Assembly: GCF_014656435.1 (NCBI RefSeq)
Contig: NZ_BNCK01000009.1
Span: forward strand, 62,001-126,000
Direction of reading: 5' to 3'
DNA: 64,000 nt
Origin: Thalassotalea marina
GTDB taxonomy: Bacteria; Pseudomonadota; Gammaproteobacteria; Enterobacterales; Alteromonadaceae
Notes under the pieces: generated by a model
The model's database searches: none
What the model saw: only the letters and a program-made list of their open reading frames with translations
What the model was told of the DNA's origin: nothing
Translations under genes and position numbers: made by a program
Shown here: piece after piece, positions 7,740-41,747 of the stretch
Numbering within the stretch: position 1 is the stretch's first letter
Layout of the letters: each line of letters opens with the position of its first letter

Positions 7740-8477
7740 ATGATGATCCCAGCAATAGACCTGATAAATGGCCAAGTGGTTCGTTTATATCAAGGTGATT
7801 ATGAACAAAAAACACAATATCAATTTAGCCCTCAAGAGCGGCAACAAGCGTATTTTGAAGCCGGCGCCAAAGTGATGCACTTTGTCGATTTAGATGGCGC
7901 AAAAGATAGCAATAAGCGTCAGCTCGCCACATTAAAAACTGTAGTTTCTCACCCAGAAATGATCATACAAGTTGGTGGTGGCGTGCGCTGTGAACGAGAC
8001 GTAATAGAGTTACTTGAACTTGGTGCCGATCGTGTGGTTATTGGCAGTTTGGCAATAAAACAACCAGAATTAGTTGCTCATTGGCTAGACAAATATGGCA
8101 GTGAAAAAATTGTTCTAGCGCTTGATATTAAAATCGATAAAAACGGCAAAAAAACGCTACCAACTCACGGCTGGATAAAAGACAGCGGCGTGGTTTTGGA
8201 AGATTTGTTAGCCATGTATCAAAACGCGGGTATAAAACATGTGTTATGTACTGATATTAGTAAAGATGGCACCTTAGCTGGCACTAACGTATCGCTTTAT
8301 CAAGAACTTACTACTGCCTACCCTGATATCGCCTGGCAGGCCTCAGGCGGCATTGGTTCACTGGATGATATTAAGGCTTTGATCCCAACTGGTGTTAGTG
8401 GTGTTATTTTAGGTCGTTCATTATTAGAGGGTAAGTTCACCTTAGAGGAGGCAATTGCATGTTGGCCAAACGCATAA
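7740..8477 (+). CDS. hisA: phosphoribosylformimino-AICAR-phosphate isomerase
   Basis: TIM-barrel isomerase of 245 residues that opens the ribose of ProFAR to PRFAR (step 4). Internal half-barrel duplication with HisF is visible: the N-terminal Asp in [20 protein letters not shown], a phosphate-binding [11 protein letters not shown], the second catalytic Asp in [16 protein letters not shown], and the second phosphate site [11 protein letters not shown]. Two consecutive ATGs (7740 and 7743) could start it. It begins four bases after hisH and overlaps hisF by 19 bases. Confidence 0.96.
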
Positions 8478-28244: not shown

Positions 28245-28252
28245 GAAATATT

Positions 28253-28451
28253 TAACCTCAGGTTTGTATAAGAAATAGTGCTAAATCAAAGAAAACAATA
28301 AGTTAGCAGTCTCTTATTTTTCTAGGTCGATATTTTTGTCTGAATTCAAGGCATTTTGAAGCAGGAATAGCTAGCTATTTCGCTTCAAAATAACGAAGGA
28401 GTCAGTAAAAGTAGCGCCTAGAAATGCATTGCTTATGCGAAGCTGAGGTTA
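28253..28451 (+). repeat. 199-bp MITE-like foldback element, copy 1
   Basis: Ends are inverted repeats: the first 20 bases TAACCTCAGGTTTGTATAAG match the reverse complement of the last 20 at 17 positions. Inside, TTTCTAGG/CCTAGAAA, CTGA/TCAG, TTTTGAAGC/GCTTCAAAA and the central palindrome AATAGCTAGCTATT make almost the whole right half pair with the left. A second copy at 41549 has the same length with 12 mismatches by eye and no gaps. TA dinucleotides at both ends are compatible with a TA target duplication. No coding frame. It ends four bases past the stop of the minus-strand GST gene. Confidence 0.85.
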
Positions 28452-28455
28452 TTTA

Positions 28456-37259: not shown

Positions 37260-37567
37260 TCTTGCATGTGAAAGAAGCGAGCACCAATCAATGCTTGCTT
37301 CTATGTGCAAATCGAAGGCTATACGATCGAATAGCCCAACAAAAAATAAATTAAGTATACTTTGTGAACAAACTAACGTATCATGCTTGGGCTTTAGAAA
37401 TTTAAAGCTTTATCTATTATCGCACTTTGCGTTTCTTTTTCTTCTTTTATTAATCCTTAAGTTGAACTTGTTTAAACATTTGCTTTATTGGTTAATGTTT
37501 TACATGTTTTGTCTAATGCACTTTTGGTGTTTTTCCACCGTTTTTTAATTAATAAAAGGTTTTACAT
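37260..37567 (+). promoter_or_regulatory. long leader of the cold-shock gene
   Basis: This 308-base gap holds a weak hairpin after the permease (37273-37302), a GGCTAT/ATAGCC stem (37317-37336), a possible -10 box TATACT at 37356-37361, and then about 200 bases of T-rich sequence before the start codon. Long structured 5' UTRs are the rule for cspA-type mRNAs. An 85-codon frame here (37291-37548) is low-complexity and probably not a gene. Confidence 0.45.
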
Positions 37568-37780
37568 ATGTCTGATCCAGTAAATGGTATCGTAAAGTGG
37601 TTCAATGAAGATAAAGGTTTTGGTTTTTTAACACCAAGCAATGGTGGAAAGGACGTTTTTGTTCACTTCCGTTCAATTGTTTCTGGTGGTTACAAATCAC
37701 TATCTGAAGGTCAAGAAGTTCAATTCACTATTGAGCAGGGTCCAAAAGGACCACAAGCTGCAAGCGTAATAGCCATCTAA
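37568..37780 (+). CDS. cold-shock protein, CspA family
   Basis: 70 residues, one cold-shock domain. RNP1 is KGFGFLTPS and RNP2 is DVFVHFRSI. The single OB-fold binds single-stranded RNA and acts as an RNA chaperone. AAAAGG lies eight bases before the ATG. It has a long leader and a strong terminator, so it is monocistronic. Several csp paralogues are usual in such bacteria, so the number (CspA, D or E) is not assigned. Confidence 0.95.
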
Positions 37781-37795
37781 CTTCTTCTAAATCCT

Positions 37796-37820
37796 AAGGC
37801 TAGTGCCAACTAGCCTTTTT
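37796..37820 (+). terminator. intrinsic terminator of the cold-shock gene
   Basis: AAGGCTAGT (37796-37804) and ACTAGCCTT (37809-37817) form a perfect 9-bp stem with loop GCCA, followed by TTTTT. Confidence 0.9.
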
Positions 37821-41548: not shown

Positions 41549-41747
41549 TAACCTCAAGTTTGTTTAAGAAATAGTGCTAAATCAAAGAAAACAATAAGTT
41601 AGCAGTTCCTTATATTTCTAGGTCGATATTTTTGTCTGAATTCAAGGCATTTTGCAGCAGGAATAGCTAGCTATTTCGCTTCAAAATAACGCAGAATTCA
41701 GTAAAAATAGCACCTAGAAACGCATTGCTTATGCGAAGCTGAGGTTA
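41549..41747 (+). repeat. 199-bp MITE-like foldback element, copy 2
   Basis: Same length and orientation as the element at 28253, with about 12 mismatches by eye and no gap. Its inner arms pair even better: CTGAATTC on the left with GAATTCAG on the right is exact. It lies in the 314-base gap after DUF5329 and ends 16 bases beyond the stop of the minus-strand aldo/keto reductase. It has TA at both edges and no coding frame. Confidence 0.85.

Follow-up and report, generated by a model that had tools for sequence, protein, structure and literature searches.

A 64,000-bp stretch of Thalassotalea marina DNA (the window, meaning this whole stretch) contains one 199-bp sequence twice, which raises the question of what this sequence is, which enzyme moves it and why it folds back on itself. 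The original prediction, made from the letters alone, described two 199-bp copies with about 12 differences and no gap, and our pairwise comparison of 28253-28451 with 41549-41747 found exactly this (199 bp each, 12 differences, ungapped). The 20-bp inverted ends that it gave as matching at 17 of 20 positions do so in copy 1, while those of copy 2 match at 15 of 20. The halves were rightly said to fold around a central palindrome: AATAGCTAGCTATT starts at 28366 in copy 1 and at 41662 in copy 2, and the + strand of copy 1 folds to -73.4 kcal/mol compared to -40.5 +/- 3.4 kcal/mol for 200 shuffles (z = -9.6). The folded core consists of a CTAGG...CCTAG stem, a CAAGGC / TAACG internal loop and an apical hairpin. 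The predicted TA is present at both edges, but in copy 1 it belongs to a 6-bp duplication, TATTTA, and is not the element's own boundary; the mobile unit proper is ACCTCAG...CTGAGGT, and the edges of copy 1 are corrected to match (Table 1).

Table 1. Positions of the two copies in the window and of the parts of copy 1
Feature	Position	Strand	Basis or remark
Left target-site duplication TATTTA, copy 1	28249-28254		Identical to 28450-28455
Mobile unit, copy 1	28255-28449	+	28253-28451 minus the duplicated TA on each side
Left end, 18 bp, ACCTCAGGTTTGTATAAG	28255-28272	+	16/18 with the best IS982 left end (L301), the best score over both element ends and 11 insertion sequences
Conserved folded core, copy 1	28319-28424	+	Fold of copy 1; covariation in 24 copies and in 14 genera
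Apical palindrome AATAGCTAGCTATT	28366-28379	+	Paired in most A2 rows (helix 6, 90.4% of cells)
Right end, 18 bp, inward reading ACCTCAGCTTCGCATAAG	28432-28449	-	Comparison with IS982 ends
Right target-site duplication TATTTA, copy 1	28450-28455		Equal to the left duplication
Mobile unit, copy 2	41551-41745	+	Within 41549-41747; flanks TAGCTA (left) and TAAGAC (right), so the duplication is no longer present

No open reading frame of at least 80 aa overlaps either copy, so the element is short and lacks a transposase gene. The neighbours of copy 1, malQ and a GST gene, face each other; copy 2 is flanked by genes for an aldo/keto reductase and a DUF5329 protein, both of them on the - strand. 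Scanning the window with the covariance model returned only copies 1 and 2, plus weaker mirror matches of both. Elsewhere in the window, a cspA thermoregulator RNA (RF01766) was found at 37479-37820 (+), scoring 81.5 bits where the gathering score is 78.

The family is far from confined to these two copies. A BLAST search of the window's genome with the 199-bp sequence found 49 places, of which 18 are full-length copies with 88-100% identity; among the others, three span the full length at 75-80%, and the rest are partial matches or the palindrome matching itself on the opposite strand. Many relatives have diverged copies of almost equal length, and the element is present in numerous marine bacteria. 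The recent spread that had been predicted holds to a moderate degree, with a median nearest-copy identity of 94% among 19 copies of the window's genome.

Insertion sites

We collected 111 elements with both ends from the fetched loci, after removing three second or doubtful readings, and compared their flanks. The two bases beside the edge TA agree between left and right in 82 of the 111, compared to a mean of 16.7 and a maximum of 32 in 10,000 shuffles. A flanking repeat is present in 86/111 (6 bp in 78, 7 bp in 8), compared to 11.6 expected when the two flanks are taken from different elements. The duplicated site is mostly TANNTA or TANNNTA, and a further 38, more diverse elements drawn from the GTDB family and order gave 24 duplications against 3.0 expected. 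Since variable bases agree on the left and right within a repeat of 6-7 bp, which takes in 2-3 bases beyond the TA, these flanks do not suit a duplication confined to TA. The original prediction had proposed a Tc1/mariner-IS630-type MITE with a TA duplication, a reading that draws on the TA at both edges and on a single IS630 remnant (PF13358), itself broken, that the genome contains. The 6-7 bp duplication led us to reject an IS630/Tc1 parent, and the matching ends are borne by IS982 elements, as set out below, so that we consider the Tc1/IS630 reading highly improbable. The remnant itself (G000:C1:599378-599790; L081, L082) is a broken IS630-type transposase with an in-frame stop.

Pseudoalteromonas aurantia 208 provides one empty site: locus L183 lacks the element that L128 and L174 carry, and aligns with their joined flanks at 91% and 89%. 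This site is 284 bp long, compared to 282 bp for the join minus one 6-bp copy, and its junction bases differ. Since it is 2 bp too long, L183 shows insertion but does not measure the duplication. Short forms with internal deletions and duplications (L184, L188) were rejected as evidence of mobility because a deletion after insertion retains the duplication. In the same strain, tandem copies share a single TANNTA (L134, about 7780-7985; L191, about 74-271). Together, multiple copies, inverted ends, target duplications and the empty site support the predicted MITE-like nature of the 199-bp sequence.

Source of the transposase

The window had been said to contain no transposase, and this extends to the genome at large, where PF01609 and PF13612 have no matches (the latter meaning no intact IS982) and the broken IS630 piece was the only remnant. 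None of 63 end matches (at most 3 mismatches) in the window's genome forms a transposon-sized pair, and no element combining these ends with a transposase gene was found there; four searched genus-mates likewise gave no IS982 matches. Full-length elements with closely matching ends, of the kind that the original prediction suggested looking for, turned up in relatives and not in the window's genome. Among 22 PF13612 loci examined in related genomes, 13 copies from 11 genomes have clear matching ends and 9 do not. These 13 IS982 copies are 923-1015 bp long with an open frame of 294-318 codons, and the four proteins tested all passed the cut-off of the IS982 model NF033520. An identical 6-7 bp repeat flanks 12 of the 13 (10 TANNTA, one TAAATAA and one TTATTA); end choice first rewarded a duplication, and the same ends were chosen for all 13 without that reward.

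The ends of these IS982 copies closely match those of the gene-less element. In six elements compared, 16-17 of 18 positions agree (16 in the window copy, 16-17 in the five others), while the 99th percentile of shuffled ends is 10-11, with the observed value being the better of two ends and the control using the left end only. The better match was to the left end of the insertion sequence in all six. The best-matching insertion sequence came from the same genome in two cases (G108 and G168) and from another genome in two (G117 and G215). The element also co-occurs with IS982: it was found in 15/19 genomes whose PF13612 match was strong (E <= 1e-20, our own cut-off) compared to 75/177 others (p 0.003), and in 26/40 genomes with any match compared to 64/156 without one (p 0.008), both being hand tallies that ignore kinship and take the element and PF13612 counts as covering the same 196 genomes. 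In the assemblies searched, a strong PF13612 match is absent from 75 of the 90 carrier genomes, including the window's.

These sequence comparisons are best explained if an IS982-type transposase mobilises the element, even though the window's genome has no match to IS982. Supplied in trans, a DDE transposase of the IS982 family would act on the 18-bp ends and insert the element at TANNTA or TANNNTA through a 6-7 bp staggered cut, with both ends of the non-autonomous element resembling the left end of an IS982 element and surviving copies lying mostly between genes. That IS982 does the moving is suggested by the ends, the duplications and the IS982 copies of relatives; in T. marina the transposase would have come from an element since lost.

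Several other sources were considered and set aside. ISNCY (NF033594), a candidate because of its duplication lengths, gave no locus with matching ends around the gene in 13 genome entries searched, two of which (G061, G177) are apparently the same genome. DDE_Tnp_1 (PF01609) gave no matching end pair in 7 genomes (30 loci read of 52 places). The idea that TANNTA is the crossover core of a tyrosine recombinase was abandoned when IS982 elements turned out to have duplications of this kind. In Paraglaciecola, unpaired ends next to an operon of two genes led only to bPH_2 neighbour genes; here an exact unpaired element end adjoins the same bPH_2 gene pair at two loci (L093, 5659-7807; L169, 1270-3325), perhaps as an old shared remnant. 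Plasmid and phage collections had no match at E <= 1e-5, two viral contigs carry the end pattern, unpaired at the thresholds used, and a scan of viral contigs with the neighbouring malQ protein gave no match and was uninformative.

The hairpin and what maintains it

The second question is why the element folds. In an alignment of 24 diverse copies (A2), a 56-pair structure is paired in 88.6% of 1341 cells and 28 pairs have changed on both sides, compared to 35-48% paired when the structure is slid by 1-3 columns; A2 left out L095, L101 and L106, which have the ends in common and an unlike interior, as well as L086, L157 and L171. RNAalifold on 30 rows that included L095, L101 and L106 (A1) pairs only the ends. 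When one copy from each of 14 genera was aligned blind to structure, the shared hairpin reached -101.2 kcal/mol, compared to -78.6 for the opposite strand and -11.3 +/- 3.8 for 50 column shuffles, and both sides have changed in 33/66 pairs (25/44 among interior pairs). These and the following tests treat copies and genomes as independent and ignore kinship.

The hairpin also shows a preference for one strand. The + strand has the lower energy in 107/111 copies, which are related to each other, and across the 14 genera G-U pairs exceed A-C mismatches by 63 to 8. The interior ratio, from a structure derived without G-U, is 19 to 4 (p 0.0026, cell-wise). A strand-neutral count on A2 gave a weaker 55 to 29. 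The + strand energy and the G-U excess point to a single strand, RNA or DNA, and the hairpin would be kept by selection on that strand.

A foldback sequence could also acquire such changes with no selected fold, if the two arms serve as templates for each other's repair within the hairpin (quasi-palindrome repair) and thereby change in step. Functionless covariation is expected of it, and the end helix covaries too, although this may also reflect one transposase reading both ends; the interior pairs covary as well. Quasi-palindrome repair treats the strands alike, unlike the G-U excess seen overall and in the interior, which in the strand-neutral A2 count is weaker, and the motifs of the internal loop also show sequence conservation. 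We therefore regard repair as an unlikely source of the fold, and prefer selection on a single strand.

Such selection might act for the host, with each copy being a host-serving structured RNA, such as an mRNA end or a small RNA, that is mobile by chance. The conservation of the fold and core motifs over at least 12 GTDB families would be in keeping with this, as would one aspect of the gene context. Among the 111 elements, 15 lie at a locus edge, one lies inside an ORF and 95 lie between or just touch genes; these 95 comprise 37 in convergent, 50 in tandem and 8 in divergent gene pairs, from mechanical ORF calling and with counts that stand without a null expectation. The few copies between divergent genes (8/95) could favour a host RNA, but in tandem pairs 26 are sense and 24 antisense, with no bias. 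The element also lacks an Rfam match, both in the window at the gathering score and in L001, L083, L032 and L114 at E <= 5.

We compared private with shared changes for interiors only, since the P. aurantia copies came from a pattern with one exact end that biases the ends. Among the 67 copies of the P. aurantia group, 14/57 private changes in interior stems preserve the pair and 43/57 break it, contrary to what a host RNA would suggest, and the change rates of stem and loop are alike (0.58 and 0.63). This fits single copies that decay much as if neutral. In the window's own genome (18 copies), 14/28 private interior stem changes keep the pair, and the private change rate is lower in stems than in loops (0.26 vs 0.68), which neutral decay does not predict; the own-genome result is ambiguous. 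Changes shared by at least two copies keep the interior pair in 14/33 cases in the P. aurantia group and in 6/17 in the own genome, which does not show strong sparing of pairs. These shared changes and the low stem rate in the own genome count against selection on propagating copies. Among private transitions, those to G-U and those to A-C are about equally common in either group (12 and 8; 12 and 18).

A host-serving RNA thus appears improbable to us. The original prediction had named a conserved structured RNA family as something that would speak against a MITE; the interior is indeed a conserved fold, and the unit is also mobile. Since single copies in the P. aurantia group look neutral while conservation between genera is strong, the simplest reading is selection on lines of spreading copies over long timescales, and the fold may serve the element's own spread. 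Folded copies, as RNA or single-stranded DNA, would then spread better, with no need of a host benefit. A more specific possibility, which we put forward tentatively, is that the + strand hairpin (RNA or single-stranded DNA) helps an IS982-type machine to recognise, copy or protect the element. Altogether, we think it probable that this is a MITE with IS982-like ends, moved in trans by an IS982 transposase, whose hairpin is kept by selection on one strand.

Distribution and relation to known systems

The covariance model R1 found the element in at least 90/196 genomes and at least 34/52 genera of the GTDB family, and in at least 82/394 genomes, at least 26/114 genera and at least 12 families of the order, with weak matches in three of these families (f12, f13 and f17; best E 1e-6 to 1e-8). 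Scoring used strict filters with at most 12 (family) or 6 (order) candidates per genome, so that copy numbers and absences are lower bounds. Among the matches listed, most are 194-200 bp long, and twelve copies, most of them from other families of the order, measure 196-211 bp and retain the majority of the core motifs. The end pattern occurs, among the matches listed, in records of Pseudoalteromonas aurantia, P. caenipelagi, Thalassotalea, Vibrio penaeicida and Paraglaciecola; in P. aurantia 208 the end pattern with TANNTA matched 91 times, and in the control not at all.

Near-identical ends enclose different-looking interiors at five loci (L101, 3138-3341; L106, 1335-1531; L160, 6951-7120; L122, 6236-6400; L176, 4810-5047) in metagenome-assembled genomes of Enterobacteriaceae, Chromatiales, Gammaproteobacteria and Proteobacteria, with matching 6-7 bp flanking repeats at L160, L122 and L176. 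These ends seem to be common to several MITE families. Among the copies listed, orientation per contig half leans 10/12 in G182:C1 and 9/11 with the opposite sign in G163:C1, with no lean in G140:C1, in a tally by hand that assumes the origin at the contig start and may mean nothing.

Bacterial MITEs are usually treated as short-lived insertion-sequence debris, and a hairpin shape kept across several bacterial families is unusual for gene-less mobile elements. Here, one length and one covarying fold extend over at least 34/52 genera and at least 12 families of the order, and in most cases no resident enzyme was detected. This raises the testable question of what selects folding in a gene-less mobile element. 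If the tentative reading, in which the hairpin is part of how an IS982-type machine handles the element, is true, this would be a DDE-type bacterial element whose structural core is kept over many families while its enzyme source changes. The ACCTNAR ends, the TANNTA duplications and the covariance model R1 offer handles for annotation. Our literature searches found no paper on IS982 with Pseudoalteromonas, and those on MITEs in such bacteria and on covariation in MITEs listed no description of this family, although an earlier one is possible.

Correia repeats, likened here by description alone, are likewise intergenic, hairpin-forming and multicopy. ERIC, an enterobacterial intergenic palindrome, is 127 bp long, compared to about 195-200 bp here, and a blastn search of 20,395 E. 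coli records with our element gave no hit at E <= 0.01. As ERIC is described in the excerpted text of PMC10969869, the two are alike in being intergenic, near-palindromic and hairpin-forming, multicopy and widespread, yet 30 ERIC copies are reported there for E. coli K-12, whereas our element has no blastn match in the E. coli records searched, making kinship with ERIC very unlikely indeed.

IS982 elements are about 1 kb long and have 5'-AC ends and direct repeats that vary in length, as outlined in PMC7335449, and the T. marina element shares the 5'-AC ends and has direct repeats within the range reported there. Its ends match those of the relatives' IS982 elements at 16-17 of 18 positions. 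Unlike these, it has no transposase gene, is about 195 bp long and has two ends that both resemble the IS left end, and its core was not found in the IS982 elements. A known element of like kind is MITECca01, an IS982-derived MITE of Cardinium of about 240 bp, which is also short and gene-less, of similar size and bounded by IS982-type inverted ends (PMC9769881). In the excerpted text of that source, MITECca01 is reported from one strain, beside an intact parent; the T. marina family, on the other hand, spans many genera, is mostly parentless and has a covarying core.
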